Below, in pieces: positions 941 through 29,039 of a DNA stretch of 57,969 nt. The notes under the pieces were generated by a model. The model saw only the letters and a list, made by a program, of their open reading frames with translations. It searched no databases and was not told the DNA's origin. The stretch's first letter is position 1. Each line of letters starts with the position of its first letter. The stretch lies in contig JAICIO010000032.1 of the NCBI GenBank assembly GCA_025924315.1, positions 1 through 57,969 on the forward strand, read 5' to 3'. The translations under genes and the position numbers were made by a program. The stretch is from Phycisphaerae bacterium (lineage in GTDB: Bacteria > Planctomycetota > Phycisphaerae > Tepidisphaerales > Tepidisphaeraceae).

Positions 941-1143
941 GTGCTTTGTCCGCGAGAGTCGACCCTTTGTGGCCTCCTGCGGAGAAATTCGCGCGGGGAA
1001 TGATTCGCCAAGGCGTCATCTTCCAGCGAACGGAGATCCGCGATGGGTTGGCTCACGAAAGGCGGCCCGGTCTATTAGATCAAGTTCGCTGTTGCGGGTA
1101 AGAAGAATGCGTCGGAGGTAAGTTCGTTCAACGCGGGTCAAAG

Positions 1144-4692: not shown

Positions 4693-4767
4693 TAGCCGCA
4701 GCAATCTGCCGCCGCGTGCGTGATCGTGGTATGTTCGATCTTAACTTCACGTGCTCAGGAGAGGATC

Positions 4768-6420: not shown

Positions 6421-6429
6421 CGAGACCAC

Positions 6430-6508
6430 GTCATCCTGAGCGCAGCGAAGGATTTCGATTTCGATCCCGACATTCGATTTCGAGATTCTTCGCTTCGCTC
6501 AGAATGAC
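6430..6508. repeat. CATCCTGAG-type dispersed inverted repeat
   Basis: The left arm begins GTCATCCTGAGCGCAGCGAA at 6430. The right arm ends CGCTTCGCTCAGAATGAC at 6508. The arms are about 28 bp, imperfect, with a 23-base spacer. The element fills the gap between two convergent genes (pgi and the surface protein). A second copy with better-matched outer ends is at 51597-51696. Repeats of this type, often mistranslated as HPERSEG peptides, are scattered through many bacterial genomes. Confidence 0.85.
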
Positions 6509-6518
6509 ATCTCTACGG

Positions 6519-9575: not shown

Positions 9576-9815
9576 CGACATTCCTCCCAGGAAATGATCG
9601 CGAGGAGCGATCGAAAGAGATCTGCCCCGGGCGCGATGAGTTTTTCGATTCGCTTGGTCAGCGGCGCCGTCAATGAGAGGCCCGCTGCGGATCAGGTTAC
9701 GAATTCATAACGACCAATACAACGAATTCCCCTGCGTTTCGAACGTTGGATGGCCGGTCGGTCGGACGGGTTACAGTGGACGTTCAAAAAGCGTAACCAA
9801 AATTTCTTTTTCGGC

Positions 9816-9843
9816 TTGACATATTCCTGTATGGGGATATAAA
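9816..9843 (+). promoter_or_regulatory. Promoter with dyad operator for the arsR operon
   Basis: TTGACA (9816-9821), 16 bases, then TATAAA (9838-9843). The spacer contains an imperfect dyad (ATATTCC and GGGGATAT, 9821-9840) that reaches into the -10 box, where an ArsR dimer could block polymerase. The expected start of transcription (about 9850) is two bases from the ATG at 9852, so the arsR message may be leaderless. The rest of 9582-9851 has no other feature I can support. Confidence 0.65.
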
Positions 9844-9851
9844 TTTCACAT

Positions 9852-10190
9852 ATGGCCCGAGCCGCTACAACACTCGATCCGTTCAACGCCGTCGCCGAGC
9901 CGAAGCGCCGCCAAGTGCTCGAAGCCCTGGCCGAGCGTGAGATGCCCGTGAACGATCTCGTCGGAAGGCTCGGTTGGCCTCAGCCGATGGTTTCCAAACA
10001 CCTCGGTGTGCTGAAGGAGGTGGGTCTCGTGAACGTGCGACGCGATGGACGTCAACGCCTCTACCAAGTCAACGGCGAGAAGCTCAAAACCATTCACGAC
10101 TGGGCCAAGATGTTCGAACGCTTCTGGGCGCACCAGCTGCTTCGCATCAAGGAACAGGCCGAGCGGAAGCACAAGGAACGAACCAACTAA
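9852..10190 (+). CDS. ArsR-family winged-helix repressor
   Basis: 112 residues. A complete ArsR-type winged helix: EPKRRQVLEAL (about residues 18-28), the recognition helix in QPMVSKHLGVLKEVGLV (about 43-60) and the wing VRRDGRQRLYQVN. There are no Cys residues, so it is not a classical metal sensor of the CxC type. It belongs to the subgroup paired with SRPBCC proteins, which typically represses its own operon. The dyad in its promoter spacer fits autoregulation. A conventional Shine-Dalgarno site is missing. It is followed by the SRPBCC gene after 25 bp. Confidence 0.93.
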   Translation: MARAATTLDPFNAVAEPKRRQVLEALAEREMPVNDLVGRLGWPQPMVSKHLGVLKEVGLVNVRRDGRQRLYQVNGEKLKTIHDWAKMFERFWAHQLLRIKEQAERKHKERTN

Positions 10191-10215
10191 CTCTTCACTG
10201 AAAGGAAGGACGCAC

Positions 10216-10683
10216 ATGCCCCCTGCCACAACAGTCAATCAGGAACAGATTCAGACGCTCACGATCCGCCAGGAGGTGGAAATCGTCGCCACGATCGAAA
10301 CCGCATGGGAAGCCGTGCTCGATCAATTGGGACCGAAGAGCGAAATGCCCGATGGCAAGCCATTCCCATTCACGCTGGAAGCGTGGCCCGGCGGACGATG
10401 GTTTCGCGATCTCGGAAACAGCACGGGCCATCTCTGGGCACATGTGCAGGTCATCAAACCGCCGAAGCTGATCGAGCTTTGGGGCCCGATGATGATGTCC
10501 CATCCGGCCGTCAATCATCTGCAGTATCGACTGACCGCCGAGGGGTCGAAGACGCGCCTGCAGCTCGTCCATCGCGCGATCGGCATCATCGACGAACAAC
10601 ATCGCGAAGGCTTATCGCAGGGATGGGGATACTGGGTGAAGCGGATGAAGGACCTCGCAGAGCAACGCGCGAGCAAACGCTAG
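10216..10683 (+). CDS. SRPBCC (AHSA1/START-like) domain protein
   Basis: 155 residues from ATG 10216, with GGAAGGA at 10204-10210. The frame is open upstream but overlaps arsR and is not used. Typical helix-grip fold features are TIRQEVEIVATIETAWEAVL at the N-terminus, WPGGRWFRDLG in the middle and a C-terminal helix GWGYWVKRMKDL. These proteins bind a hydrophobic small molecule in a deep pocket, and the ligand cannot be inferred. Its place directly after arsR is a common arrangement in which both are induced by the same signal. Confidence 0.88.
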   Translation: MPPATTVNQEQIQTLTIRQEVEIVATIETAWEAVLDQLGPKSEMPDGKPFPFTLEAWPGGRWFRDLGNSTGHLWAHVQVIKPPKLIELWGPMMMSHPAVNHLQYRLTAEGSKTRLQLVHRAIGIIDEQHREGLSQGWGYWVKRMKDLAEQRASKR

Positions 10684-10709
10684 TCGCACAACGAAAGAAG
10701 GAGACTGTC

Positions 10710-11507
10710 ATGACGAAGCCAACCATCGTATCGAAAGCGGAATGGACAGAGGCCCGCAAGGCGCACCTGGCGAAGGAGAAGGTGAACACGCGTCAGCGCG
10801 ACGAGCTGGCGCGCGAGCGACGAAACCTGCCGTGGGTGCGCGTGGACGAGAATTACGTGTTCGACGCGCCGCAGGGAAAGGTGACGCTCGCCGATCTCTT
10901 CCGCGGAAAGAGTCAGCTCATCGTTTATCATTTCATGTTCGGCCCCGAGTGGGCGGAGGGATGTCCGAGTTGTTCGCTGCTGGCCGATCATATGAACGGC
11001 GCCCTGCCGCACCTGGCAGCGCGCGACACGTCGCTCGTCATGATCTCGCGCGCGCCGATCGGAGAGATCGAGGCGTTCAAGAAGCGTATGGGCTGGCAGT
11101 TCCCGTGGGTCTCATCCTTCGGCAATGACTTCAATCACGACTTCAACGTCTACTTCACGCCGGAGGAAAAGGCCAAAGGCGAGGTCTATTACAACTACAC
11201 GATGCAGCCGTTCCCCAGCGACGAAGCACCCGGCGCGAGCGTGTTCTACAAGGACCCGGAGACCGGCGAGATCTTCCACACGTACTCGACTTTCGGCCGC
11301 GGACTCGACACGTTTGTCACCGCATACGTGCTGCTCGATCTCGTGCCAAAAGGCCGCGATGAAGACGAGCTGCCGTTCAGCATGCAGTGGGTACGCCATC
11401 ACGACAAGTACGAAGCCGGCGCGAAGTTCCTCGATGCGGAAAAGCCGTACTGGCCGAAGGTCGCCGAGAAGAGCGGATGCTGCCATTCTGCGGAGGCGAC
11501 ACGATGA
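10710..11507 (+). CDS. DUF899 (thioredoxin-like) family protein
   Basis: 265 residues from ATG 10710, with AAGAAGGAG just upstream (10695-10703). DUF899 proteins have a thioredoxin-like fold of unknown substrate. VYHFMFGPEWAEGCPSCS contains a CPSC pair near residue 86-89 at the position of the redox motif. The aromatic-rich block YNYTMQPFPSDEAPGASVFY and the HTYSTFGRG segment are family hallmarks. The last residues include CC. The stop overlaps the next ATG (ATGA at 11504-11507), so the two genes are coupled. It is the third gene of the ArsR operon, so probably stress- or xenobiotic-induced. Confidence 0.9.
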   Translation: MTKPTIVSKAEWTEARKAHLAKEKVNTRQRDELARERRNLPWVRVDENYVFDAPQGKVTLADLFRGKSQLIVYHFMFGPEWAEGCPSCSLLADHMNGALPHLAARDTSLVMISRAPIGEIEAFKKRMGWQFPWVSSFGNDFNHDFNVYFTPEEKAKGEVYYNYTMQPFPSDEAPGASVFYKDPETGEIFHTYSTFGRGLDTFVTAYVLLDLVPKGRDEDELPFSMQWVRHHDKYEAGAKFLDAEKPYWPKVAEKSGCCHSAEATR

Positions 11508-11770
11508 ACGCGCGAACCTGCTGCCGCGAGGCGAGCCAGTGGCTGGCGCCGAGCATCGGCCTGGCTCTTATCCCGAAGTGCCCGATGTGCGTCGCCGCGT
11601 ACGTTGCGACAATCACCGGCGCCGGCATCTCGCTGCACACCGCCGCGGGAATCCGGTGGGGTCTGCTGATTCTCTGCATCAGCGCGATCGGTTTGGTTGG
11701 AATCCGAGCGGCCTTACGCTTGGTCGCCAAGTCGAACAACGAACGGTGGCACCGACATTCCTGTCGGTGA
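11504..11770 (+). CDS. Small Cys-containing membrane protein
   Basis: 88 residues. CC at residues 6-7, then ALIPKCPMCVAAYVATITGAG, with a CPMC pair at the mouth of the first helix, and a second helix LLILCISAIGLVGIRAAL. It resembles short MerC-like or redox membrane proteins that often accompany DUF899 genes. Transport or electron transfer is only a guess. The final residues (from about NNERW on) and the TGA stop are encoded by a paired-hairpin repeat that begins at 11745, so the original C-terminus may have been shorter or different. Confidence 0.75.
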   Translation: MNARTCCREASQWLAPSIGLALIPKCPMCVAAYVATITGAGISLHTAAGIRWGLLILCISAIGLVGIRAALRLVAKSNNERWHRHSCR

Positions 11771-11846
11771 TCGGACGCGGTAGTCCGCGGCCGACTCGGG
11801 TCGAGGGATACCTCGCCCCGTCACAGGCAAGAATGCCTGTGCCACC
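11745..11846. repeat. Paired-hairpin inverted repeat with compensatory changes
   Basis: The outer arms are 25 bases (11745-11769 and 11822-11846), both starting GGTGGCAC in their own orientation. Each arm folds on itself (8-bp stem, four-base loop TTCC or TTCT). The arms differ at five positions: four of these form two compensatory pairs in the stem (C-G against A-T, A-T against G-C) and the fifth is in the loop. The 52-base middle contains further short palindromes, such as CGAGGGATACCTCG. The element lies between convergent genes and supplies the stop of the left one. Confidence 0.85.
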
Positions 11847-11861
11847 AGTCTCACCGGCGTC

Positions 11862-13160
11862 CTAAAGCGCCGCCGCGTGCATGGCGACCTTGCGGAAGGC
11901 GCTGGCGAATTGTTCGATCGCTTCGGCGTCGTCGTGCTTGAACCACGGCACGCCGAACACTCGATCCGCCAGCGCCTCCGATCGCGGAAGCGAGCCTTTC
12001 GGCTGTCGCACGTCGCGCTCCGTGAAGGCGATGCGGGTTGGCTTGCCGTCGTGATAGACGTCCGCCTCGTTCAGCACCGGATGCAGGTGCAGCGGGAAAT
12101 TCGCTCCGCGGCCGGTTGCAACGCCTTCGGCATTTAGAGCTTCGATGAACTTCGTCACCGGCAGACCGTTGAGCTCTTCGGGCAGATAATGCCCGAGCGG
12201 GTTGTACCATCCGCCCATCGTCGAGTTGCTCTTCGGATCGACTCGATGCGCGCGGATTCCAGGCACCCCTTCGAGCAAATCCCAGAACCGATTCATCGCC
12301 CGCTGAATCTTGCTCATACGCGACGGATAATGCTTCAGCTGCACGCGTCCCATCGCGGCGCAGGTTTGGTTGAGCCGGCCTTTGATCGCGCCGAGCGGCA
12401 AGCCGCTCATGAACTGATCCGGCGCGACGATGCGCTTCAGCTCGGGATCGGTGAGTTCGCCCTTCGTGCGCTCGTAATGCCCGAACGCCAGCGCGCGCTC
12501 ATAGATCGAGCGATCGTTTGTCCATAAGATCCCGCCTTCACCGACGGAAAGACTCTTCCCCGACATGAGCGACGCTGCCGCGACGTCGCCGAAAGTGCCG
12601 ACCATCCGGCCGTTGTACATCGCGCCGTGCGCATGCGACACGTCCTCGATCAATTTGACCCGATGCTTCTTGCAGATTGCAACGATTGAATCCATATCGC
12701 AGGGATGCCCGCAGTAATGTACGACCATCACCGCTTTCGTTCGCGGCGTGATACGGCGCTCGATGTCTCGCGGATCGATGCAAAGCGTGTCGGCGTCGAT
12801 ATCGGCGAAGACGGGTGTCGCGCCGAGCGACATCGCCTGCAAGGCGCTCGCCCAATAGGTGACGCTCGGCACGATCATTTCGTCGCCGCGGCCAAGGCCG
12901 ACGCCGAACATCGCTTCAAGCAGCGATGCGGTGCCGTTGCAGCTCGCCAGCGCATATTTGGCCCCCGCCCACCCCGCAAATTCGCGCTCGAATTGCTTTG
13001 TAATGTCGCCGTAGGACATCGATCCGGCGCGAAGCACCTCAATTACCGCGCGTTCGTCCTCGTCCGTCACAATCGGCCAATGAAATAGCGACTTGTCGAA
13101 TTGCTCGACGCTCTTTGCCCCACCATGAATCGAGAGCTTCTGTGTCGATGTCTTAATCAT
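11862..13160 (-). CDS. DegT/DnrJ/EryC1/StrS-family PLP aminotransferase
   Basis: 432 residues from ATG 13160; an in-frame extension to 13433 covers the divergent gene and is not used. The family transfers an amino group to a keto-sugar, or is a related PLP enzyme, in the cytoplasm. The internal-aldimine Lys is K202 in MSGKSLSVGEGG. IEDVSHAHGA is the cofactor Asp/His block, and SCNGTASLLEAMFG binds the phosphate. The C-terminus has the LHLHPVLNEADVYHDG substrate loop. It is divergent from the BNR gene with only 42 bp between starts. It could belong to nucleotide-sugar or antibiotic-type sugar synthesis, but no partner genes lie nearby. Confidence 0.9.
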   Translation of the reverse strand: MIKTSTQKLSIHGGAKSVEQFDKSLFHWPIVTDEDERAVIEVLRAGSMSYGDITKQFEREFAGWAGAKYALASCNGTASLLEAMFGVGLGRGDEMIVPSVTYWASALQAMSLGATPVFADIDADTLCIDPRDIERRITPRTKAVMVVHYCGHPCDMDSIVAICKKHRVKLIEDVSHAHGAMYNGRMVGTFGDVAAASLMSGKSLSVGEGGILWTNDRSIYERALAFGHYERTKGELTDPELKRIVAPDQFMSGLPLGAIKGRLNQTCAAMGRVQLKHYPSRMSKIQRAMNRFWDLLEGVPGIRAHRVDPKSNSTMGGWYNPLGHYLPEELNGLPVTKFIEALNAEGVATGRGANFPLHLHPVLNEADVYHDGKPTRIAFTERDVRQPKGSLPRSEALADRVFGVPWFKHDDAEAIEQFASAFRKVAMHAAAL

Positions 13161-13202: not shown

Positions 13203-14471
13203 ATGCGAAATGCGTTGTTGCTTGTGGTTGGATGCACGATTCTCCTCAGTACCCCTCTGCTCGCGGATGCAAAGCCTCATCTCGAATTGATCACCGACCG
13301 CTCCGGCGCCAGCGAAGCCTGCGGTCCCGTCGCCATCCGATGGGGGTTCATGTGCACGATCGGCGCGCGTTTCGAAGATCGTGTTTACGCGCTCAACTTC
13401 ACACGCACGCCGGACACTGCATGGGACGCTCAAACGCCGATCGAAGCGCCTCTCGCGTTGTGGTCACGGCACAGCGGGAAATGGACATCCGTACTTCTCG
13501 ACGGCCCTAAGCGCACGTATCAGACGCCGACGCTTTTGCTTTCGCCGGATGGTCGCGCGAATGTTTTCACGGTGCACCCGTTTGATTCAACGATTCAGTG
13601 GTTCCGCGCCGACGACGCGTCCAATACGAAATTCACCCGCAGCGAGATCGATATTGGCTGGGGCTCTTACATGAGCGGCGCGATCGACCGGAAAGGCGAG
13701 GCGGCGCTCGTGTATTGGACCAACGGCCCGGATTACAAACAGTCAAAGCTCGGCTGCACACTGCTCGACACAATCACCGGCAAGTCGCGAAATCTGATCG
13801 TTGATTCGCCGGGCGCACCGTATTGCTATAACCACGTCTTCTTCGATCAGACCGGCGTGCACATTCTAAGCACTCGCAGTGAGGTGGCGGACTTCAACAT
13901 CGCGGATTCACGAAATCACTACACCGATCTGCACTATTACCACTGCGCGAATCCGAACGCTGCTGAGCCGAAATGGCAACAGGTCGTGGTTGTTCAAAAC
14001 GAACGCGCCCGGTTCCAAACGCGGGCGAATCTCGTCGATCCGAGCGGTCGCGTGCATCTGTTGTATCAGTACGTTCTCGACGACGGGCACGGCAAAACCG
14101 CAGGCGGACTCAAGATGGTCTATGCCGCATCGCGCGAGCCAATTTCGTCTGAACACGTTCCGGAGTTCGTGTCTCACGAGATCGAATCGCCCGGCGAGGC
14201 GCGGCTGTTTATGACGAAAGAGGGCGCGATCTACATCGTGACGTACGACACCAGCAACACGCTGCAATACGCGAAAGTGCTCGATCCCGTCGCGGGGAAG
14301 TTTTCGGACTGGAAAACGCTTGAAACGGACGTGACGTTCAACCGTCTCTTCCCGATCGACGCGCGAAGTGGGTCGACGCCATCGGATGAACTCGCCGCGA
14401 TCCTCATCCCCGCGATAAACATTCCGGAAAAGAACAACATGTACTATTTCACGATCGACCCGGCCCAATGA
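13203..14471 (+). CDS. Exported BNR/sialidase-like propeller protein
   Basis: 422 residues from ATG 13203 with a clear signal peptide (MRNALLLVVGCTILLSTPLLA). Repeated blocks such as RVHLLYQYVLDDG, GAIYIVTYDTSNTLQYAKV and RANVFTVHPFDSTIQWFRAD look like BNR-type propeller blades that alternate hydrophobic strands with Asp-rich turns. No catalytic set of a known family was recognised. It could be a glycan-binding or glycan-cleaving exoenzyme. It is convergent with the deacetylase gene (stops at 14471 and 14472 touch) and so stands alone. Confidence 0.75.
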   Translation: MRNALLLVVGCTILLSTPLLADAKPHLELITDRSGASEACGPVAIRWGFMCTIGARFEDRVYALNFTRTPDTAWDAQTPIEAPLALWSRHSGKWTSVLLDGPKRTYQTPTLLLSPDGRANVFTVHPFDSTIQWFRADDASNTKFTRSEIDIGWGSYMSGAIDRKGEAALVYWTNGPDYKQSKLGCTLLDTITGKSRNLIVDSPGAPYCYNHVFFDQTGVHILSTRSEVADFNIADSRNHYTDLHYYHCANPNAAEPKWQQVVVVQNERARFQTRANLVDPSGRVHLLYQYVLDDGHGKTAGGLKMVYAASREPISSEHVPEFVSHEIESPGEARLFMTKEGAIYIVTYDTSNTLQYAKVLDPVAGKFSDWKTLETDVTFNRLFPIDARSGSTPSDELAAILIPAINIPEKNNMYYFTIDPAQ

Positions 14472-16190
14472 TCAGAAGGTGAACGTCGCAGGCTTCTTCA
14501 CTTCGATCGATTGCGTCACCGCGCGCCACGCAAATCCCCAGGCGTGGAAATCGGACGTGCGGTCCAAATACAGCACCGTCGCATCCGCCAAATCGCGTTC
14601 TCCGCTGAGCGTCACGGTCGCATCGCCTGCGTCGAATTTCTCGACGCGTACTTTTCTCCGTGCGCGTTCCCAGTCGTTGATCTCCCGCGCCGTCCACCAC
14701 TCCAGGCCTTCCTCGCGCGCCCGCCGCACGCACATCCGAAACGCCTCCGCCACCTCCGGCTTGACCGTATGAAACGGATGAAAAAGCTGATGCAGAATTC
14801 CGTGGCGCCGCTTTACGCTCGCAAGCAGCGGCTCGAACACGTGCGTCGGCGCCCACGCCGGCATGTCCCACACATGCGTGCACAGTTCCATGCAGTCGAT
14901 CGTCTCGCCACGAAACGTGACGGGAATGTACGGATGACACGTGCCGAAGGTAAAGCCGCATTCACCGGTCTTGCTCGGCGATTTCGTCTGATCCAGCTCG
15001 ATGCCAACCCTCGCACACCACTCGAAGAATTCGCAATCCCCCTCCCAGCGCGTGCCGTGATTCTTGTTGCTGACAGGCCGTTCGCCGAATTGCTCAGACA
15101 GATCGCGGTGCTGTCGCCGCCAATCTTCCTCGGACCAGTTTGTCCCCTCGCCGAGCGCGTCGTAATGCGTCGCGAGCTCATGCCCTGCCGCTCGAATCTT
15201 CGCGGTGAGCGCTGCGTCGTAACCCGGCAGGATGATGCACCACGTCGTCTTGATCTTCGTTTCATCGAGCAGCCGAAGCAGATCCTCCGCCTTTTCCGGC
15301 TCATTTCCGTCACTGTCGTGCGAGATGTGCGCCAGCGCCGATAGTCTTCTTGGATAGAGCCACAACATCGCGAGCGGCACATCGTGCTGCTGTGCGAGAT
15401 AGAAGATCGACCGCAACAACAGTTCGCGCCACAGATCCGCGATGGGTTCGAGAAAGGCACGAAACTTTCCACCGCTCTCCGGCACCGGATCGCGATCGAA
15501 ATCCCAGTCGAGCACCGCGCCGTCGTCCGCCTTCAACACGTGATCATCCACCGCGCCGGACCCGTCCGCGGCCGGAACGCCATCGCGAGACACTCCTATG
15601 CCCTGCTGAATGCGAACGATCGTGCCGGTGAGATTCACCGCGATGAAGATCGTGCGGCCGTTGCCGATCACGTTCTCGACGACCCCGGGACGATCAGTCG
15701 GTTGACCGTGCTTTCCGTTGACCGTCGCGAGAACTCTCGCGCTCGTCGCGGTCACAGTCGATCCGCCGAAAAGATGTAGCGGACGAGTGACGTGACCGAG
15801 CGCAGGATGCGAATCCTCGCGCGCGGCGAGATAACCTTCCCCAAGAGATCGCACCCCGCCGCCCCACGACGAAATCTCTGGCTCGACCGGCGCAACGCCC
15901 AGCAACGAACCCATCCCGCACGTTCCGCCGATCGACAGCCATGCGCCTCCGCGTCCAATCCAGCGCGTCAGCTTCTCGCGAAATGAATCGGAGAATTCTG
16001 CGTCGCCGATGGTGACGAGAAGCCGAAGGCGATCCAGCGATCGTTCGAGATCGCCGAAGTCGATCCGCTGATGAAACAATCCCGCGTGATCGAGGATCTC
16101 GAAAATGTAATTCGGATAGGTCACCGTCCGCGCGGTGTTCGGCCGTCGCTCCGGCAATACGCAAATCCCAATCGGCAGATCTTCACACAT
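14472..16190 (-). CDS. Amidotransferase-like domain fused to a polysaccharide deacetylase
   Basis: 572 residues, no signal peptide. Residues 1-220 resemble the glutamine-amidotransferase-like fold used as an accessory domain in GH42 enzymes (RLLVTIGDAEFSD, GRGGAWLSIGGTCGMGS). No nucleophile elbow is evident, so it is probably non-catalytic. Residues 285-480 form an NodB-like deacetylase: HDSDGNEPE near residue 291 holds the metal Asp, with GHELATHYDALGEG and HPFHTVKPE further on. A short C-terminal beta domain follows. It is the last gene of the six-gene minus-strand operon and overlaps the MFS gene by eight bases. A cytoplasmic deacetylase would act on imported sugars rather than on the wall (inference). 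Confidence 0.85.
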   Translation of the reverse strand: MCEDLPIGICVLPERRPNTARTVTYPNYIFEILDHAGLFHQRIDFGDLERSLDRLRLLVTIGDAEFSDSFREKLTRWIGRGGAWLSIGGTCGMGSLLGVAPVEPEISSWGGGVRSLGEGYLAAREDSHPALGHVTRPLHLFGGSTVTATSARVLATVNGKHGQPTDRPGVVENVIGNGRTIFIAVNLTGTIVRIQQGIGVSRDGVPAADGSGAVDDHVLKADDGAVLDWDFDRDPVPESGGKFRAFLEPIADLWRELLLRSIFYLAQQHDVPLAMLWLYPRRLSALAHISHDSDGNEPEKAEDLLRLLDETKIKTTWCIILPGYDAALTAKIRAAGHELATHYDALGEGTNWSEEDWRRQHRDLSEQFGERPVSNKNHGTRWEGDCEFFEWCARVGIELDQTKSPSKTGECGFTFGTCHPYIPVTFRGETIDCMELCTHVWDMPAWAPTHVFEPLLASVKRRHGILHQLFHPFHTVKPEVAEAFRMCVRRAREEGLEWWTAREINDWERARRKVRVEKFDAGDATVTLSGERDLADATVLYLDRTSDFHAWGFAWRAVTQSIEVKKPATFTF

Positions 16191-17511
16191 CGCGCGACAT
16201 CCTCGGCGAGAGAAACCCCACGGCGACGATCGCCGCGATCAGCATGATGAGCGACAGCGCGACGTTCGGCGTATGATCCATCAGCCATGCCAATCCGAGG
16301 GGCGCGAGCCCGGGGATCAGACACGCGGTGTAATAAATCGCCAGGTACTGGTGCATGCGTGACTGATCGGCGCTGCGCATCACCGCGAGCAGCACGTAGA
16401 ACAAACTCCCAAACGCCGCGGTGGTGATCATGAGCAGCGGCACGAGCTGAAATCGTCCCCACGAGAGCATCGACAGTGGAACTGCGAGAAGGATGAGCAC
16501 CGCCAACCCGCCCGCGACGCGCGCGGGACCGATGCGATGCGAGATGTATCCGAACAAGAGCAGGCCCGGAATCATGACGTACGGGCGAGACGCGACGAAC
16601 AGCGCCTTATCGTCCGCGCCGGTGAATCCGCGATATTTCACCGCGTACGCGAGCATCACGGGCGTGAGGCTGACGAGCGCGATCGCGAACGGAGCGATGC
16701 GCAGCGTCGCGCGGAAACGATCGTCGGTTTGCACCGTTTGCCAGAGCATCGCGAGGTAGCCGCCGAACGTCAGCTTCGGCTCATTCGAGACCGGCGGTTT
16801 GTATTCCTTCAAGCCGAGGATCACGAACAGGCAGACAAAGCCGTTGCTCGCGAAGATCAGCATTGCGACGGCGTAATTCCTGGGATACGGCAAGGGCGAA
16901 TGGCTACTGATGAGCCATCCCGCGAGACCCGCGGTCAGTAATGTCGAAGCCTGCCCCAATGCGCCCGCCTGACCCATGATCTTCGATCGCTTGCTGTCGG
17001 GGAAAATGCGCGCAAATAAATCCCAGCACGGCAGGATCGTCACGCCCAGCGCCAGCGAATAGCAGATCACGCATGCGGAGAAAATAACGACCATTGCACG
17101 CTCGGACTCAACGCGCAACAGGGCGATCGCCAGCGCGAGAATCGGCAGATACATCGCCGCCACCGAAGCGGCATAGACGCGCGTGCGTGACGCTCGCGCG
17201 CCCATCAGCCAGCCGAGGAGCAAAATTGGAATGTACGAGATGCTGTAATCGACAACGGTCGGCAGCGCGACGATCCATGTCGGCGCATGCAGCCGCATCG
17301 CGAGCGTCGGCACGAAGACGGACATGTCGCCAAAGGGGCTGGCGCCGAGGCTCACCAGCACAATCAGCATGTAGAGCAGATAATTCCGTTTTGCGTATTG
17401 AGAGAGATAGGCTTCCTGATCCGCAGCAAGCGGTGATTCAGGCGCGCCATTGGTCACGGTCGCCATCGCCGCGCCGGGACCTTCGATACTCGCATCGAGT
17501 GAATCAGTCAT
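16183..17511 (-). CDS. MFS transporter
   Basis: 442 residues with about twelve hydrophobic helices, for example YLLYMLIVLVSLGASPFGDM, YIPILLLGWLMGARASRTRV (with the basic loop between helices 2 and 3) and LPLLMITTAAFGSLFYVLLAV-type segments in the second half. A cytoplasmic loop near residues 235-265 separates the halves. It is likely an inner-membrane symporter for a sugar or oligosaccharide, judged from the genes around it. Its ATG overlaps the stop of the transglutaminase gene by four bases, and it overlaps the deacetylase by eight. It is the only transporter in the six-gene operon, so the likely entry point for the substrate. Confidence 0.88.
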   Translation of the reverse strand: MTDSLDASIEGPGAAMATVTNGAPESPLAADQEAYLSQYAKRNYLLYMLIVLVSLGASPFGDMSVFVPTLAMRLHAPTWIVALPTVVDYSISYIPILLLGWLMGARASRTRVYAASVAAMYLPILALAIALLRVESERAMVVIFSACVICYSLALGVTILPCWDLFARIFPDSKRSKIMGQAGALGQASTLLTAGLAGWLISSHSPLPYPRNYAVAMLIFASNGFVCLFVILGLKEYKPPVSNEPKLTFGGYLAMLWQTVQTDDRFRATLRIAPFAIALVSLTPVMLAYAVKYRGFTGADDKALFVASRPYVMIPGLLLFGYISHRIGPARVAGGLAVLILLAVPLSMLSWGRFQLVPLLMITTAAFGSLFYVLLAVMRSADQSRMHQYLAIYYTACLIPGLAPLGLAWLMDHTPNVALSLIMLIAAIVAVGFLSPRMSRDV

Positions 17512-18356
17512 GAAGCGTTTTCAATCGGCGGCGCGCCGTAATAGACCGCGATACCATCGGCCTTGGGATGAATGCTCGGCCAGGTGTTTACGATTTCGCG
17601 ATGATCGCGCATCCACTCGAGCGTCGGCAATTCGCCTTCTTCTGTTTGTGGAATGAATCCGCGCGGAAACATGTCGGTGTCCGCCAAAACCCAACGATCG
17701 CCCAGGAGAATCTCGCTGTATCGGTGGCTGATGCCTTGAACCAGCCTCGCTCGCCAACCGCCAGCTTGCGCGAGCTGTGTCACGACAAATGCTTGATGTC
17801 CGCAGCGGCCTTCATGCAATGCGAGCAGCTCGAGCGCGTCGTTCACGCATCCGCGGAGGCCCCAATCGCCCGTGAGTTTTTCGCCGAACGGATTGCACCA
17901 AATGCCGACGTGTTTGCCGAACGCTTTCGCCTCCGCGTACGCGTGCTTCGCCCACGGCGCTTCGAGATCTTCGGGATACGCTTCCGCCTGATCGGTCGGC
18001 GGACAACATTCCCGACGTAGCGTGTCGATCGCATCCGCTTCCAGCGGCTGTTCGACCGGCGGCCAGAACATCATCTGTTGCACGAAGTCGATCAACGCAA
18101 CAAAGCGCTCCCGATCCGTGTCGGCTCTTGCCCAGACGCGAGAGATGATCCGCTGCAGCTCCGCTTCGCGATCGATGCCCTTGAGTTGTTCACGAACGAA
18201 GGCGATTTTCTCGGCGCGATAGCCGAGCGCGATCTTCCAATATGTTTCCGGTGTCCACGGCGGAAGCTCGCCCATCAGGAACCAGGGACGCACCGGTGCA
18301 CCGCGCGGACACCACTCCGGGTCGAACTGATAATTCCAATCGAGCGTCCACGCCAT
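17508..18356 (-). CDS. Transglutaminase-like protein (second copy in the operon)
   Basis: 282 residues, no signal peptide. The papain-fold triad is visible: C185 in HEGRCGHQAF, H211 in ISHRYSEI and D226 in LADTDMF. The first 130 residues are a Trp-rich alpha region (WTLDWNYQFDPEWCPRGAP). Bacterial members are peptidases, amidases or cross-linking enzymes. It is coupled to the MFS gene by a four-base overlap and separated by 12 bp from the barrel protein upstream. It is not a close copy of the other transglutaminase-like protein of this operon (20291-21517), so the two probably act on different bonds. Confidence 0.85.
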   Translation of the reverse strand: MAWTLDWNYQFDPEWCPRGAPVRPWFLMGELPPWTPETYWKIALGYRAEKIAFVREQLKGIDREAELQRIISRVWARADTDRERFVALIDFVQQMMFWPPVEQPLEADAIDTLRRECCPPTDQAEAYPEDLEAPWAKHAYAEAKAFGKHVGIWCNPFGEKLTGDWGLRGCVNDALELLALHEGRCGHQAFVVTQLAQAGGWRARLVQGISHRYSEILLGDRWVLADTDMFPRGFIPQTEEGELPTLEWMRDHREIVNTWPSIHPKADGIAVYYGAPPIENAS

Positions 18357-18368
18357 CCGCGGTGTTCC

Positions 18369-20294
18369 TCACGATTCATAGTACACGCGAACGATCCCCG
18401 TCACAGTCAAAGTCGGCAACGCGAGTCGGATTTCCCGCTCATCCACAAACTGCGTCTGGAGATCGCATTCGCCAGATTCAGGAGAACTCCATGTCACGCG
18501 CCGCGGTTGTCGCGCGGGTCGCAGCCGGAGCACCAATCCAATTCGCGGCGTGGTCGCGATTTGAGGAAATACGTTGCAGTAACGATTCACGAGATGCACC
18601 GCCTCGCCGTCAGGCAATCGCGTGTGATTCAACGTGACCAGCGCGAGCGGCGGATCAATTCGTACGGATGGCGTTGGCAGCGCGCGATCGACCGCCTCCG
18701 CCCATGCTCCGATCGGCTGCCGAAAGCCCGTGTGCATGCCGATCATCTTCCGCGAACGCGCATATTGCTTTTCAACGCGCTCGGAAAAGTGCTGATGCGC
18801 GCTGCCGTGCCACGTTGTTCGCCGTGGTTGGAGTAGTTCATTGAGCTGCGCGCTATTGCCCGTGCTGACGACTTTGCCGCCATGATCTAAAAACGTGTGC
18901 ACGGCCGCGAACCAATCATCCGACAGCACTTCGACATGCGGGACGAGCAGCAGCCGATAGCGCGATAGTTCTTCCAAGTCGGGTGGGCGATCCGCGATCA
19001 CAACATCGAAAGGCTGGTTCAGATCCTCGAGCAGCCCCCCGGTCATCTTCGCGGGAGAATCGGCGGCGCTGGTCCAGAGATCGGATCGCCAGGAATACAG
19101 AATCGCGATGTCGTTGAAGTCGTGCTCAATGGCGTAAAGGCTCGATGCAAACTCGTGATGGAATTCGCGCATCGACCGAGCCGCGTCCGCGAGCGCCGGA
19201 TTCTCGCGATAGTTGAGATCCCAGAAATCCGCTTGCCCACCGAGCGAGCGCCCCTCGGCCGTCAGCGTCTTCACCATGTCGACCGTCGGCGCCGACTCCA
19301 TCACGCGCGTAATGATAAACGGACAACGTTCACCGCTCGTCAACGCACTGCCGAGGCGCAAGCTAAATGCATTCGACACGGGCGGTGCCGAGAACCCGTC
19401 TTCGCTGAAAATCATGTCGAACACGCCGCTCGCCATGATCGCGGTTTGCTCGGCGATTCCGATGTGGCCGTTGGATGTGTAAATGATGCTGCGTCCAATC
19501 GCGGATTCGACTTCGAGACGCACGGTGCGATAAAAGTCGATTGCGCGCTCGATTCGCCATTCGAGATAGCGCATCGTCTTCGGGTCAGCGATTGGCACGA
19601 GATCGCGCGGCCGCTGCGTTGGCCCCACATACTCGAATACGCGCATGTCCGCGACGATGGTCGGCGGATTCCCCATGTCGCTGATGAGGTTGCGGCCCGT
19701 CGCGCGAGAGTAATTGTCCTGGCAGTGTCGGCAGCGGCAGTGAATGAAGGGCGTGCAGTTATCCCAGAAGACGCCGTCAGCGCCGTAGTCGCCGACGCGA
19801 ATCTTCAAGCGATCGACGAGCAGCGCGCGCCATCCGGGTTTGTTCGTGCACGCGAACTGCCGGCCGGGGTTGTCGAAGGCCCACGTGAACGGCTGCAATT
19901 CCGCGGCCATTTCGGAAATCTCTTCGCGCGTGAACTGCGTGGAATCGAAGTTGTTGTCATTCTGGTAGACGATCACCCCAACGCCAACGGCATGCATCGA
20001 CGCGATGTATTTTCGCTCGCGTTCGACGCCTTCGTTTAATAACTCATTCCGCGCGAAGCCTCGCCATCCGCCGTGCTCGGGCCGAACGCGATGCTCGGGC
20101 AAGGCGGTGTGATAGACCAGATTGCACGGCCGCTTCACAATGGCGGGACCGACCGGCTTTGGATCATCGATGTCGAGCGAATAGAACAATCGCCCGCGAC
20201 GAAGGATCTGCTGGTACTGCTCGCGCGACGGGAATCTTCCGTCGGCCCACAACTCGGGCGAGAGCAGGAAATCATCGTGCAGATCCATCGTCAC
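18369..20294 (-). CDS. GH42-like TIM-barrel protein with trimerisation-type and C-terminal beta domains
   Basis: 641 residues, no signal peptide. Residues about 40-340 look like a glycosidase barrel: VGVIVYQNDNN, GADGVFWDNC and IIYTSNGH are strand ends with acidic residues. Residues 400-520 resemble the beta-galactosidase trimerisation domain (RYRLLLVPHVEVLSDDWFAA, HGGKVVSTGNSAQ). The tail is a beta sandwich. The general layout is that of GH42 and related clan-A proteins, but I cannot place the two catalytic Glu with confidence. A CxCxxC cluster (HCRCRHCQDNYSR) near residue 190 is unusual and could bind metal. It overlaps the preceding gene by four bases and is a central enzyme of the operon. 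Confidence 0.75.
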   Translation of the reverse strand: MTMDLHDDFLLSPELWADGRFPSREQYQQILRRGRLFYSLDIDDPKPVGPAIVKRPCNLVYHTALPEHRVRPEHGGWRGFARNELLNEGVERERKYIASMHAVGVGVIVYQNDNNFDSTQFTREEISEMAAELQPFTWAFDNPGRQFACTNKPGWRALLVDRLKIRVGDYGADGVFWDNCTPFIHCRCRHCQDNYSRATGRNLISDMGNPPTIVADMRVFEYVGPTQRPRDLVPIADPKTMRYLEWRIERAIDFYRTVRLEVESAIGRSIIYTSNGHIGIAEQTAIMASGVFDMIFSEDGFSAPPVSNAFSLRLGSALTSGERCPFIITRVMESAPTVDMVKTLTAEGRSLGGQADFWDLNYRENPALADAARSMREFHHEFASSLYAIEHDFNDIAILYSWRSDLWTSAADSPAKMTGGLLEDLNQPFDVVIADRPPDLEELSRYRLLLVPHVEVLSDDWFAAVHTFLDHGGKVVSTGNSAQLNELLQPRRTTWHGSAHQHFSERVEKQYARSRKMIGMHTGFRQPIGAWAEAVDRALPTPSVRIDPPLALVTLNHTRLPDGEAVHLVNRYCNVFPQIATTPRIGLVLRLRPARQPRRVTWSSPESGECDLQTQFVDEREIRLALPTLTVTGIVRVYYES

Positions 20295-21517
20295 CTCGTC
20301 GCCGCTCGTGAGAAGTGATCACGATTGCTGGTTCGATACGGAAACATCTCCAGCCTCTCTTCGCCGGCCGGGATGTACCACACAAAATCCGTCTCGCAGT
20401 AATTCACCGATCCGTGGCTCGGCGGAGCGCTCGGCGGATTCGAGATCACATCATTGAACCGCCAAACGCCGACATGGCGAAAACTTTTGCCGGTTCTGAG
20501 CTGCTGATTGAGGATTTGAAGCAGCCGCGGATCGTTTGACGTAAACCCGGGCCCGCGGCGCATGAGTTCGCGAAGATCGCTCCGTCGCGAGTGATCCGCC
20601 AGCTCGATCGCCGACATCGGTGTTTCCGATTCGTAATGCAGATCGTAGCTGGCGTCGTGCGCGATCCACTTTTTCATCCGCCTGTCCCAGATCTCGGTCA
20701 TGAAGTGGCCATGCGGACTGTTCACATCCTGAGTGATCGCGACGCCCCGCGAATCGTGGCCGAGCGCCGCCGCGAGAGAGGAAAGGACAAAACCATAATG
20801 CACGCACATCGCAATCGGGTTTTCGTAACCGTGGCCCCAGTTCCCTTGCTGCCACGCGAGCACCGTCCATGGATCGTGCGGCGAATACGATCGACCGAAC
20901 GCTTCATACGTCCACGCGCGCGTCACCCAAGTTCGAAGCGCCAGGATCTGCCGCCACGGATCCGTGATTTTGCGGATCGACGCCGGGACCAGATCCCTCA
21001 ACTCGCGCACACGCGGACGCTTTGGGTTTTCGTAAATGATCTTCGGCGGACGCGCATCTCGTTCGTCATGCACCCGGATGCGAATGAGATATTCACCACG
21101 AAGAACGCCCGATGCGCCCATCGACTCGTTCTGCCAACTTCGCCCGCGATCGAAACTCAGGAAGCTTTTCGGATTGGCATGACCGTTCTCAATGCCGAGC
21201 ATCCATGTGTTCATCGCGGGGCTGTCACAACGGACAATGATCTCGTTGACGCCAGACCTGACTGCGATCGGCATGCGCCGCCATTGCCACGACGATTCCG
21301 CCTTTGCATCAGCGCGAATCGTTCCGGCGATCTTTCCGTTGATCTCGACCTTCAGCGGATGTTCGCAATTGGGATACGGGCGCACGAACAACCACAAGTC
21401 AGCATGCTTCGCTTTCGACGAGACGCGAAGCAGTTTGCGCGCCCAGCGCCAGCGCGCGATCTCTTCGTTCGCATGCAGCAGCACTCGCCCGCGGTCGGTG
21501 AAGATCAGGCGGCTCAT
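20291..21517 (-). CDS. Transglutaminase-like protein (first copy in the operon)
   Basis: 408 residues from ATG 21517, which overlaps the upstream stop (ATGA); the longer frame to 21706 runs into the propeller gene and is rejected. Residues 1-150 are a beta-rich domain resembling a carbohydrate-binding or ornament domain (RLIFTDRGRVLLHANEE, VNEIIVRCDSPAMNTWMLG). The papain-like triad is C238 in NPIAMCVHYG, H271 in GHFMTEIW and D288 in IAHDASYD. There is no signal peptide. The substrate is unknown. With the propeller, barrel, deacetylase and MFS genes it forms a translationally coupled cassette. Confidence 0.85.
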   Translation of the reverse strand: MSRLIFTDRGRVLLHANEEIARWRWARKLLRVSSKAKHADLWLFVRPYPNCEHPLKVEINGKIAGTIRADAKAESSWQWRRMPIAVRSGVNEIIVRCDSPAMNTWMLGIENGHANPKSFLSFDRGRSWQNESMGASGVLRGEYLIRIRVHDERDARPPKIIYENPKRPRVRELRDLVPASIRKITDPWRQILALRTWVTRAWTYEAFGRSYSPHDPWTVLAWQQGNWGHGYENPIAMCVHYGFVLSSLAAALGHDSRGVAITQDVNSPHGHFMTEIWDRRMKKWIAHDASYDLHYESETPMSAIELADHSRRSDLRELMRRGPGFTSNDPRLLQILNQQLRTGKSFRHVGVWRFNDVISNPPSAPPSHGSVNYCETDFVWYIPAGEERLEMFPYRTSNRDHFSRAATR

Positions 21518-22668
21518 CGGAAGAGGTCCGAAATTTCCCAGAGATAACTGCTGCGATAGGGTACGTCGTTCTCGCAGGCGTAGAGCGTTCCGTCGGCGGC
21601 GAAGGAGACATGATGGATCTGAAAACACGGCTCGCCGTTCTGATCGGCGACTTTGCCGATGAGCTCGTATTTTCCGCGATGGAAGTCGAAGCGGATGATC
21701 TCGCAATTTCCGTTGCGCCCCGTGACGCCATACGCCAACCCATCCGGCCCGGTTGCCATCGCGGCGAGTCGGCTCGGGCGATCGCTGATGGCCGTGCCGA
21801 GGTACTCACTTTTTCCCGTATCCGTTTCGACGCGATAGAGCGAGCCATTTGCCCCGCTCGCGTAAAGATAGCCGTCGTGAAAATTGAACAAGCCCTCGGC
21901 CTTCACGGTCCCGTACTTTCCATCCGGCCGCGCCAGACCATGCTTCAGAAACTCGATTGCGCCTTTGCGCGGGTCGAGCTTGCAGAGATGCTGACAATCA
22001 ACGCCTGGGCTGTTCTGCCAGGCGCGCGTCAATTGCCAGCTGCTCCACACGCAGCCGTTGTCATCGAGCACAAGGTTTTCCGGCTGACACATTCCACCGA
22101 TGCCTGTGCCGAGCAGGCCGTGGTCGCGCACCTCGCCCGTTCTCAGATTCAGCGATGCGAGCTTTTCCGGAGCGAAGCATTGGCAGTAAATCATCTCGCG
22201 CTGCGGATCGAGCGCGATCGACTGGATGTACACGTGCGGAACTGGAATTGTGATTTTTGAAATCTCGCCGCTCTTTGGATCGAATCGCACAATCGCCCCG
22301 CCGGGCGCTTGTTGAAACTTGTCGACGCAATGAAGCAGCGCGATCGCGCCGTAAATGCAGCCGTCTTTCCCACGCTCCAGGCTGCGATGGAATTTCGCAT
22401 CGAACGGATTGGCGATCTTGCTGTAGCCGAGGTCGATGAAGCGATCGGACTTGCGGTCGTAGGCTTTGAAAATATCCGAATTGAACGAGGTGATGCCGAG
22501 GTAAATGCGCTCCTGCGACGACTCGTAGAGCGAGCAATCGAAGCTGATCCACTTCTCGCGCCAGGCGGGATCGTTGCGAACGTCGTCGTATTCCCAACGA
22601 TCCTCGACCTCGTCCTCCCATTGCGAGCCGAAGTGCTGGTCGTACAGCTTGATCGATCGAATCTTCAT
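21514..22668 (-). CDS. Beta-propeller protein (SMP-30/NHL-like)
   Basis: 384 residues, no signal peptide. It is built from repeated blades with the pattern GxIYGAIAL / RFDPKSGEISK / DGYLYASGANGSLYRVETDTGK / GLAYGVTGRNG. Such propellers include lactonases, gluconolactonases and pure binding proteins. The Glu/Asn/Asp metal set of SMP-30 is not obvious, so enzymatic activity is open. It heads the six-gene coupled cassette, 12 bp after the stop of the large phosphoesterase gene, and overlaps the transglutaminase gene by four bases. Confidence 0.75.
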   Translation of the reverse strand: MKIRSIKLYDQHFGSQWEDEVEDRWEYDDVRNDPAWREKWISFDCSLYESSQERIYLGITSFNSDIFKAYDRKSDRFIDLGYSKIANPFDAKFHRSLERGKDGCIYGAIALLHCVDKFQQAPGGAIVRFDPKSGEISKITIPVPHVYIQSIALDPQREMIYCQCFAPEKLASLNLRTGEVRDHGLLGTGIGGMCQPENLVLDDNGCVWSSWQLTRAWQNSPGVDCQHLCKLDPRKGAIEFLKHGLARPDGKYGTVKAEGLFNFHDGYLYASGANGSLYRVETDTGKSEYLGTAISDRPSRLAAMATGPDGLAYGVTGRNGNCEIIRFDFHRGKYELIGKVADQNGEPCFQIHHVSFAADGTLYACENDVPYRSSYLWEISDLFR

Positions 22669-22680
22669 CGCGACGAGACT

Positions 22681-25467
22681 TTAATCGTCATCGTCCTCAT
22701 GTTCCAACTTGGTCAGCGCACCACGGCGGATTTGGGGCATGGGCGACTGCGGGCCGTGAACCGTCTGCCACGTGATCTCGTCGAGGCGCTCGGCGGGCGC
22801 CGCGTCGGCGTGAGTAAAGTCCATCCGATCCGATTCAATCGCAAGTTTTCGCCGCGGATCGCCGGCGCGAAGGTCGCTGGCCTTCGGGTTCAGCTCGCAG
22901 ACGATCTTCTGCGGCGGAACGATCGCCTCGAACGGCTCGGCATTCTTCGGCGCATGGTCCCAATCCATGATCGGATCCGCGACGGCGTCGTATTGCGAGA
23001 GTGGCTCGAGGCCAAGCAGCAGCTCCATCGTCTTGAGCATGCTGTCGGTGTTGGCGAAGCGGTGATCGATGCTTGAGCGCTTGATCCACGGGCTGATGAC
23101 ATACGCGCCGGAGCGGTGGGCATCGACGTGATCGACGCCACTCTGCGCATCGTCTTCCAGCACGAAAATCGCGGTATTCTTCCAGATCGGACTGCTGCTG
23201 ACGGCCTGAACGATTTCCCCCAGCGCGTAGTCGTTGTCCGCGAGCATCGCCCGCGGGGAGTGCTGGCCGGATTTCGCGCCGACGGTGTGGTCGCTCGGCA
23301 GGCGAATGAGCATGAGCGCCGGGACCGCGGATCCATCCGGCGACTTCTTCAGCATCATTTGAAACTCGCGGTTCCATTCCGAGAAACGGCTGGGCATCTG
23401 GCTCTTGCCGAAACTCGTGCGCGGGTAGCGATACTCGCGATGACCGGTCTGAGCGGCGAGCTCTGCGGTGAGCGGGCTGTCAGGATAATCGAGATCGAAG
23501 CGGCGGTAGTCGAAATCGGTGATGCCGTCGAGATCATGACCCGCGGGTTGGAGACCGCGTTCGGTGGGATAATTATCCGGCCCGCCGGTGATGCCGGCTT
23601 CAGCGTTGTCGATGTAGCAGAAGAAACCGTAATTGCGAATCGACAAGCCAGCCTTGCGCGCGTCGGTCCAGATGTATCGCCCGGTTCCCGCGACATCGGG
23701 CATCGGCGGGGTGCCGTTCTTCAATTCCGGCGCGGTTGCCAGCGGGCGACCATCGGGGCCGTTCTCGGGCGCGCCGCCGGCGCTGAGGCCGTTGTTCTGC
23801 CCTTCGTAATCGAACTTCCGCCCGCGTTTGGAATAGTGGTACGGAACGTTACGCGCGGTGTACGCGTTTGCCATACCCTGCGTGCTCCAGGTCCAGCCGT
23901 CGCCGCTCACGTCGCCGCAGACGTAAAAGTTGTCGAGCAGCACGAATCGCTCTGCCAGCGCGTGCTGGTTCGGAGTGACCTCGCGGCCGAACTGCGCGAG
24001 CGACGGCGCGCCGTTTCCCTGTGGAAGATCACCGAGGATCTGATCGTACGTGCGATTCTCTTTCACGATGTAAATGACGTGCTTAATCTTGCCGGACGAA
24101 AGCCCGAGATCGCGGAGCGGATTCTCAGGCTTGGCGGCGAGACGATCGAGCCGATTCTCCTTGAGCACTTGATGGGTCGCTTTCGCCAGCTGCGATCCCC
24201 CTCGCGGGAGATCGACCGCGATCACGTTTCCTTCGAGGACATTGAGCACGAACGCATTCTGACGCGAGCGCTCGTACGGATCCGGTCCATCGTTCGGATT
24301 GCGAGCGGCGCCGCCTTTTCCGTTGGCGACAAGCAGCTGCCTGCCGTCGTGCGTGACGGCGAGAGCGGTGGGATACCAACCGGTCGGGACATAACCGAGC
24401 AGCGTCTGATGCTCCAGATCGACAACCGCGACGGCATTCATGTCTCCGAGCGCGGCGTAGAGCGATTTACCGTCGGGCGAAAGGGCGAGCGCGATCGGCG
24501 TCGCGCCGGGAAGATCGCGAGCCGCGCGAGGACGAAGAAGAACCGTGCCGGTCACCTGGTTTGATGACACATCGACGATCGAGATCGTGTCGCTCAGCGA
24601 ATTGGCGACGAACAATTGTCGCTCGTCGCGCGAGAGCAGCACCGCGACGGGCTGGGCGCCGGTTGGGATCCTCGCGAATAGTTTCGGATGCATGGGATCG
24701 TGTGTGTCGAGCACGTAGACCGCGTCGTCTCGTTCCGAGGCAATGAATGCGCGTGAGCCATCCTGCAAAACCGCGATGCCCAGCGGGAAGTTCGATGTTC
24801 CGCCATGGCTCGCGGTGAAGGAATATCGGCCGACCTCTTTCTTCGTTCGCGTGTCGTAGATGCTCACGCTGCCCGGCCGCTGGAACGGATTGCCTCCGCC
24901 GGCGGAGTTGTTTGTGACATAGAGGAACCCGCGCGCATCCAGCGCCAAACCCGCGGGAAAGTCGCGCGGACGCGTCTTGATTTCGTTCGTCCATGAGAGA
25001 TGCCCGTCCTGCCAGAGCGTGAGCACAGCGATGGCGTCGTGATTGCCTTGCGCGGCGTAGACGATGTTGTCGCGCGAGATTGCCAGGCCGTAATAGAGGC
25101 CATTCGTCTGCGACGAGCCCGGCGCGGTCTCACTGAAATCGCCTTCGCCCGCGGCTTTCGTCGCCGCGGGCGAAGCGCTTGGCTTCTCGCGCTCGTTGAG
25201 GAAATCGACGTGCGAAACGCCTTTGCCATCGCTCGTGCGAATGCTCCAGAGCGCTTCGTGAAAACCCGCGTCGGTGGTGATCGCGAAGCGGCCGTCCGGG
25301 CTGACCGCGAGGTTGATCGGCAGGCTGCCGACGCTCTGCGTCGGCTTGCCCTCGATATCAATCGACTTGCCGTTTACGAGCGGATCGTGCAACGATGATT
25401 TCGTCGCACACGCCGCGGGGAGAAGACAAATTCCAATGACGCAAACGCTGATTACGAATTTGATCAC
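22681..25467 (-). CDS. YncE-type propeller fused to an alkaline-phosphatase-like phosphoesterase
   Basis: 928 residues. The N-terminus is a signal peptide ending near LLPAACATKS, possibly a lipoprotein although the lipobox is imperfect. Residues 90-440 form a YVTN-type propeller (AVLLSRDERQLFVANSLSDTIS, SPDGKSLYAALGDMNAVAVVD). Residues 465-900 are a phosphoesterase domain of the phospholipase C/acid phosphatase type: HVIYIVKENRTYDQILGD at its start, FVLEDDAQSGVDHVDAHRSG with metal-binding Asp/His near the end. This two-part exported protein is known in several soil phyla, with substrate undefined. It sits 12 bp before the propeller gene of the cassette and may lead the same transcript. Confidence 0.9.
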   Translation of the reverse strand: MIKFVISVCVIGICLLPAACATKSSLHDPLVNGKSIDIEGKPTQSVGSLPINLAVSPDGRFAITTDAGFHEALWSIRTSDGKGVSHVDFLNEREKPSASPAATKAAGEGDFSETAPGSSQTNGLYYGLAISRDNIVYAAQGNHDAIAVLTLWQDGHLSWTNEIKTRPRDFPAGLALDARGFLYVTNNSAGGGNPFQRPGSVSIYDTRTKKEVGRYSFTASHGGTSNFPLGIAVLQDGSRAFIASERDDAVYVLDTHDPMHPKLFARIPTGAQPVAVLLSRDERQLFVANSLSDTISIVDVSSNQVTGTVLLRPRAARDLPGATPIALALSPDGKSLYAALGDMNAVAVVDLEHQTLLGYVPTGWYPTALAVTHDGRQLLVANGKGGAARNPNDGPDPYERSRQNAFVLNVLEGNVIAVDLPRGGSQLAKATHQVLKENRLDRLAAKPENPLRDLGLSSGKIKHVIYIVKENRTYDQILGDLPQGNGAPSLAQFGREVTPNQHALAERFVLLDNFYVCGDVSGDGWTWSTQGMANAYTARNVPYHYSKRGRKFDYEGQNNGLSAGGAPENGPDGRPLATAPELKNGTPPMPDVAGTGRYIWTDARKAGLSIRNYGFFCYIDNAEAGITGGPDNYPTERGLQPAGHDLDGITDFDYRRFDLDYPDSPLTAELAAQTGHREYRYPRTSFGKSQMPSRFSEWNREFQMMLKKSPDGSAVPALMLIRLPSDHTVGAKSGQHSPRAMLADNDYALGEIVQAVSSSPIWKNTAIFVLEDDAQSGVDHVDAHRSGAYVISPWIKRSSIDHRFANTDSMLKTMELLLGLEPLSQYDAVADPIMDWDHAPKNAEPFEAIVPPQKIVCELNPKASDLRAGDPRRKLAIESDRMDFTHADAAPAERLDEITWQTVHGPQSPMPQIRRGALTKLEHEDDDD

Positions 25468-28866: not shown

Positions 28867-29039
28867 CTTGGGCGATATACGAGGAATGTTTGGGCCGAGA
28901 CCGGTAGCAAACCGCAAATTCATCATAATTTCATCTCGACGGCGATACTGGCGCGGCCTTATAAGGGTTTTGCTTGCAGTGGGTAATCGCAATCCCTCTC
29001 CCATCAAAGGGTAACCGAGAACGAGGCTCCGCGTCTGTC

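Follow-up and report, generated by a model that had tools for sequence, protein, structure and literature searches.

The closest described systems include the CAZyme clusters of Planctomycetota, of which, to the knowledge of the authors of a survey, none had been functionally characterised (PMC11131199). Another point of comparison is Agd3 of Aspergillus fumigatus (CE18 + CBM87), whose N-terminal domain was reported to be nearest to 3RHT and whose CE domain to 3QBU, and whose bacterial homologues sit in putative exopolysaccharide operons (PMC7229062). The six-gene cassette considered here lies in the window, that is, the whole stretch of 57,969 nucleotides that was analysed. It is similar to the CAZyme clusters and polysaccharide utilisation loci of Planctomycetota (PMC11131199) in the co-localisation of sugar-active genes with a transporter, but it differs from them in that its enzymes have no export signals and in its TG-like (transglutaminase-like) and GATase/CE4-like proteins. 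A description of this gene set was not found in the literature searched, and no SusC/SusD pair, as in polysaccharide utilisation loci of the Bacteroidota type, was present among the scanned window proteins. On balance, we lean modestly towards reading the cassette as a probably cytoplasmic operon for the catabolism of an imported amino-sugar oligosaccharide that is N-acylated or bears peptides.

The initial annotation placed six coupled genes at 14472-22668, and all six ORFs were found there as one minus-strand run from 22668 to 14472 (Table 1). From 5′ to 3′, the order is the propeller (g1), TG1 (g2), the GH42M barrel (g3), TG2 (g4), the MFS carrier (g5) and the GATase + CE4-like fusion (g6). 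The computed junctions, in the order of transcription, are −4 (g1/TG1), −4 (TG1/barrel), +12 (barrel/TG2), −4 (TG2/MFS) and −8 bp (MFS/fusion), the same overlaps of 4, 4, 4 and 8 bases and single 12-bp gap as had been given. For TG1, a longer ORF starting with TTG was rejected in favour of the ATG at 21517.

Table 1. Genes of the cassette and its flanks (positions in the window).
Feature	Position	Strand	Remarks
g1: beta-propeller-like, 384 aa	21514..22668	-	predicted cytoplasmic
g2 (TG1): transglutaminase-like (papain-fold), 408 aa	20291..21517	-	C238/H271/D288
g3: barrel + GH42M/GATase-like domain, 641 aa	18369..20294	-	GHL6/GH151-like
g4 (TG2): transglutaminase-like, 282 aa	17508..18356	-	C185/H211/D226
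g5: MFS transporter, 442 aa	16183..17511	-	MFS_1 (PF07690) match, 6e-12
g6: GATase1/ThuA-like domain + CE4/NodB-like barrel + C-terminal beta domain, 572 aa	14472..16190	-	
Upstream gene: 928 aa lipoprotein, lactonase/YncE-type propeller + phosphoesterase (PF04185)	22681..25467	-	
DegT/DnrJ/EryC1-type PLP aminotransferase	11862..13160	-	start ATG 13160
BNR/sialidase-like secreted protein, convergent with g6	13203..14471	+	start ATG 13203, signal peptide

The beginning of the cassette at 22668 is less clear-cut than had been assumed. Since the phosphoesterase gene ends merely 12 bp before g1, a gap equal to that between g3 and g4, it is probably on the same transcript as the cassette, and the transcript is probably longer than six genes; a DsbA-like gene, in turn, stops 11 bp ahead of the lipoprotein phosphoesterase gene. 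On the other side, the DegT gene lies on the cassette strand just past the 3′ end, beyond the BNR-like gene, whose family was assigned by eye and which has no Pfam or NCBIfam match. BNR-like genes are also seen near the same type of DegT in another genome (G007). In a crude hydropathy scan, the five soluble cassette proteins show no signal peptide, in agreement with the initial annotation, while the neighbouring phosphoesterase and the BNR-like protein each show one. An anti-phage defence system was considered as well and rejected, no PADLOC model matching any of the eight proteins of the run.

TG1 and TG2 belong to the transglutaminase-like superfamily, which also takes in the cytosolic PNGases. 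The Pfam model Transglut_core scores TG1 with 24.4 bits (3.8e-5), above the cut-off of 23, and TG2 with 20.5 bits (E 5.9e-4), slightly below it; a Hydrogenedentota relative of TG2 reaches 22.1 bits, and the two families can be aligned profile to profile (2.4e-6). The full C-H-D triads ascribed to both proteins earlier hold, being unchanged across six aligned TG relatives in the case of TG1 and three in the case of TG2. The likeness to the superfamily consists of the TG core and this triad. Extra domains of the PNGase type were not recognised by Pfam in either protein, and what they share with PNGases is the superfamily. TG1 and TG2 may be amidases, proteases or acyl-transfer enzymes; in the catabolic reading, either or both would remove amide-linked substituents from the substrate. 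A single-sequence structure of TG1 reached a pLDDT of 40 and was left out of the analysis.

Relatives of these two proteins are scarce. Among 392 genomes of the phylum, the one close relative of TG1 is in G118 (53%), and a further 19 genomes have distant relatives; no TG1 relative was found by whole-genome searches of 32 genomes that hold g6 relatives, none in plasmids, and neither TG1 nor TG2 was found in viral contigs. TG2 has no full-length relative in the 392 genomes, and as sole query it found none in GTDB genomes; distant full-length relatives were found in two Hydrogenedentota genomes only, among the 32 searched whole. Next to the TG1 homologue of G118 is a Gfo/Idh gene, and SGNH and MBOAT genes of exopolysaccharide type are found at a distance of about 1.4-3 kb; glycosyltransferase and O-antigen-ligase-like genes, recognised by eye, are also near. 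DegT enzymes mostly serve nucleotide-sugar synthesis. Both points would suit an operon that tailors a self-made polysaccharide or envelope glycan, in which the DegT enzyme makes the amino sugar and the fusion deacetylates the product. This explanation is nevertheless unlikely: the scanned neighbours of the window cassette include no glycosyltransferase, polymerase or flippase, the cassette enzymes carry no export signal, and the relatives of the fusion adjoin heparinase, sulfatase, aldolase and importer genes.

The GH42M/GHL6 barrel g3 matches Glyco_hydro_42M of Pfam above the cut-off (1.8e-6). Its barrel is weakly similar to the GH151-type fucosidase 6TVK (7.7e-5, in two weak stretches) and to GH42 (0.0065). 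It shares the GH42M domain and the barrel with the GH42, GH151 and GHL6 enzymes that carry a trimerisation (GATase-like) domain, but is too distant from them for a GH family or a sugar to be assigned. In the alignment of its relatives, which are merely 20-23% identical over the length, Asp178, the candidate nucleophile, and the cysteines C186/C188/C191 of a C-x-C-x2-C stretch are invariant. On the basis of this conservation, g3 would release sugar, probably by a retaining mechanism with Asp178 as nucleophile. For the propeller g1, relatives (28-51% identity, mostly full-length) were found in 13 other planctomycete genomes; the protein may be a lactonase- or epimerase-like enzyme, or a scaffold. 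Relatives of the propeller and of TG1 occur together in 8 genomes, where 0.7 would be expected (p 1e-8); this is not counted as linkage because they mostly lie on separate contigs and taxonomy confounds the comparison. The MFS carrier g5 would import the substrate; the MFS of the Hydrogenedentota TG2 locus proved to be unrelated to it.

The fusion g6 matches Polysacc_deac_1 of Pfam below threshold (0.043). In its AlphaFold model (35 sequences, pLDDT 91.9), residues ~1-270 match GATase1/ThuA-like structures (3rht, Z 18.8), residues ~277-513 match CE4-type deacetylases (3qbu, Z 20.1; 1z7a, Z 19.9), and the latter part has the fold of a CE4/NodB barrel. Invariant residues include D292, D294, E338, H342, H378, R381 and H471. 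CE4 motif 2, HxxxH, is missing, there being a single invariant His342 with no His at +4. In the model, g6 has a CE4-like scaffold, but one CE4 signature fails, and a noncanonical N-deacylase or amidase is as likely. Among the families assigned initially, those of TG1, the barrel and the MFS carrier were borne out by Pfam, with TG2 just under the cut-off, but the deacetylase label of g6 has to be taken as provisional because the canonical HxxxH metal motif is absent. In the catabolic reading, g6 would take off an N-acetyl or similar group.

The domain order of g6, with the GATase1-like domain ahead of the CE4-like barrel, is that of Agd3, and 3RHT and 3QBU are among the top matches of its model. 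Together with the bacterial Agd3 homologues in putative exopolysaccharide operons (PMC7229062), this speaks for the tailoring of a self-made glycan. As regards CE18, g6 shows the Agd3-like order, but HxxxH is absent. Of the 50 fold matches listed for the model, none is Agd3 itself, which does not speak against kinship. The model can be superposed on the PelA deacetylase (9cgy) over 423 residues (Z 15.6, rmsd 6.8). From both Agd3 and PelA, however, g6 differs in having no signal peptide, in its HDxD motif with a single His and in its low sequence identity, and its gene neighbourhood looks catabolic, unlike theirs. A scan of GTDB genomes gave 143 relatives of g6 across phyla. In the 392 phylum genomes there are relatives in six other genomes, two of them weak, besides a paralogue in the same genome (49%), which has heparinase II/III and sulfatase genes, sugar ABC genes and two DegT genes as neighbours.

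The initial annotation had suggested looking for co-occurrence of all six families. The full set was seen in this genome alone, across 392 Planctomycetota genomes and 80 loci with g6 relatives (the best 80 of the 143), and at these 80 loci no homologue of TG1, TG2, g3 or g5 lies within reach of the g6 relative. Conservation of the whole set is rejected; what recurs is its parts, in pairs and often a few bases apart. A set found once, with parts recurring in pairs only, could be a chance assembly or loosely related cargo, sharing a transcript without a common pathway. This is quite unlikely, given that four of the junctions overlap, that the same families are repeatedly found in close pairs in unrelated planctomycete families, and that the pairing of fusion and DegT spans phyla.

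As for this last pair, there are 31 DegT hits, and 19 of them share the strand of the fusion at a distance within 450 bp, against 1.8 expected under uniform placement; at three loci (L076, L089, L150) a DegT 57-59% identical to the window copy lies 0.1-3.5 kb from the g6 relative. A window-type DegT specific to the fusion was considered and rejected: 13 of the 119 genomes of relatives have one (52-68% identity), and none of the 7 loci read holds a fusion. The amino sugar may then be handled by the nearby DegT aminotransferase, to judge from this family linkage. The fusion is also found with a propeller at about 10 loci. Between this propeller and g1, hhalign finds a distant relationship (1.6e-5; two control propellers gave 0.09 and 0.19). 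At L085, a homologue of the phosphoesterase lipoprotein (31% over 925 aa) lies ~4 kb from the fusion gene.

A TG and a GH42M/GHL6 barrel are same-strand neighbours in L072, with 12 bp between them, and in L073, with 83 bp between them and a barrel below the Pfam cut-off; in L160 they belong to one cluster. At each of the three loci there is also a sugar-acid aldolase (DHDPS or HpcH type), together with an epimerase or a Gfo/Idh gene. Same-strand TG/barrel neighbours within 100 bp are expected 0.003 times base-wise, or with a gene-order chance of ~0.03 by our own estimate; within 10 kb, 2 were seen against 0.7 expected, which is not significant alone. Because the TG and barrel of L072 carry probable signal peptides, the guild as a whole is not tied to one compartment. 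In L195 (G180:C71, 2605-10519), a g1-type propeller is followed 12 bp on by a GH42M barrel and then by an M19 dipeptidase, and this row faces a DegT and a PIG-L deacetylase that overlap by 8 bp. A NodB-type deacetylase comes a few bases after a g1-type propeller in L191, and a propeller, a 749-aa protein and a TG stand in a row in L192. The 749-aa protein, taken by eye for a barrel, was not borne out as one (hhalign probability 1%, FN3 match only). To the eye, the neighbour of the propeller in L193/L194 may be TG-like. In Hydrogenedentota (L158, L159), the TG2 relatives immediately follow, on the 3′ side, a gene that encodes two Amidohydro_2 domains; L159 has a sugar MFS and a DegT in the vicinity as well.

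The compact cluster of L076 (Caldilineaceae, 1074-11782) looks like a fuller version of the cassette pathway: it contains DHDPS-like, epimerase, DegT, Amidohydro_2-like and DppA-like D-aminopeptidase genes, followed by a second DegT (59% to the window copy), an isochorismatase-like gene, Gfo/Idh and the g6 relative. Its D-aminopeptidase and the M19 dipeptidase of L195 would also suit the recycling or breakdown of muropeptides, a special case of the catabolic reading in which the TG-like proteins are peptidases or amidases and the fusion a GlcNAc/MurNAc deacetylase; the CE4-like barrel of g6 is, besides, nearest in fold to a peptidoglycan deacetylase (3qbu). Such a role is decidedly improbable, as heparinase II/III, sulfatases and sugar-acid aldolases better suit glycans containing uronate, and AmpD-, NagZ- and MurQ-like genes were not seen, by inspection, in the loci read. 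Across the loci elsewhere, the neighbours comprise Gfo/Idh dehydrogenases, sugar-acid aldolases, heparinase II/III, sulfatases, amidohydrolases and importers of sugars or oligopeptides. Other amide-cleaving families (Amidohydro_2, M19 dipeptidase, DppA-like, nitrilase-like) occur in clusters without TGs or alongside them, and clusters without g6 carry PIG-L or NodB deacetylases. It is as if functions were exchanged between clusters, with other amide-cleaving families replacing the TGs, and PIG-L or NodB replacing g6. The pairwise links were found post hoc and are few of each, with the same small family set returning in unrelated lineages. The whole is best seen as a mix-and-match guild of Planctomycetota, Armatimonadota, Chloroflexota, Hydrogenedentota and others, of which the present set is one lineage-specific combination.

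The catabolic operon is supported by the coupling of genes without signal peptides and by the recurring family pairs elsewhere. Counting against it are the single occurrence of the full set, the absence of HxxxH from g6 and the exopolysaccharide-type genes near the G118 homologue of TG1. The initial proposal, that a saccharide decorated with amide or acetyl groups is imported and broken down in the cytoplasm, survives as a category, with the absence of export signals, the pairwise links and the catabolic-looking neighbours in its favour, but not as one fixed pathway. A more far-reaching proposal is doubtful, namely a new cytoplasmic pathway of TG-like glycan amidases with a propeller, a GH42M barrel, a noncanonical CE4-like N-deacylase and DegT, in which M19, Amidohydro_2 and PIG-L are interchangeable. 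Should the catabolic reading hold, bacterial TG-fold proteins of hitherto unassigned function would gain a part in sugar metabolism, a widespread GATase + CE4-like family (the 143 relatives) with an altered metal site would be defined, and there would be a handle on the use of amide-decorated sugars by Planctomycetota and Armatimonadota.

Several other genes of the window may be mentioned. On the plus strand, an FGGY kinase, a phosphomannomutase/phosphoglucomutase, a class II aldolase and a glucose-6-phosphate isomerase stand in a row at 1144-6420, and the first three overlap. The minus-strand gene at 6519-9581 encodes a repetitive protein of 1020 aa that has an 'EALEERKLM'-type start and matches FG-GAP weakly. 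At 10305-11507 (+) there is a DUF899 protein (PF05988, 2.6e-97), whose long ORF overlaps the ORF 10045-10683 in another frame. Finally, the gene at 28974-30476 (+) encodes a Malectin domain and a Kelch propeller similar to N-acetylneuraminate epimerase (NANM).
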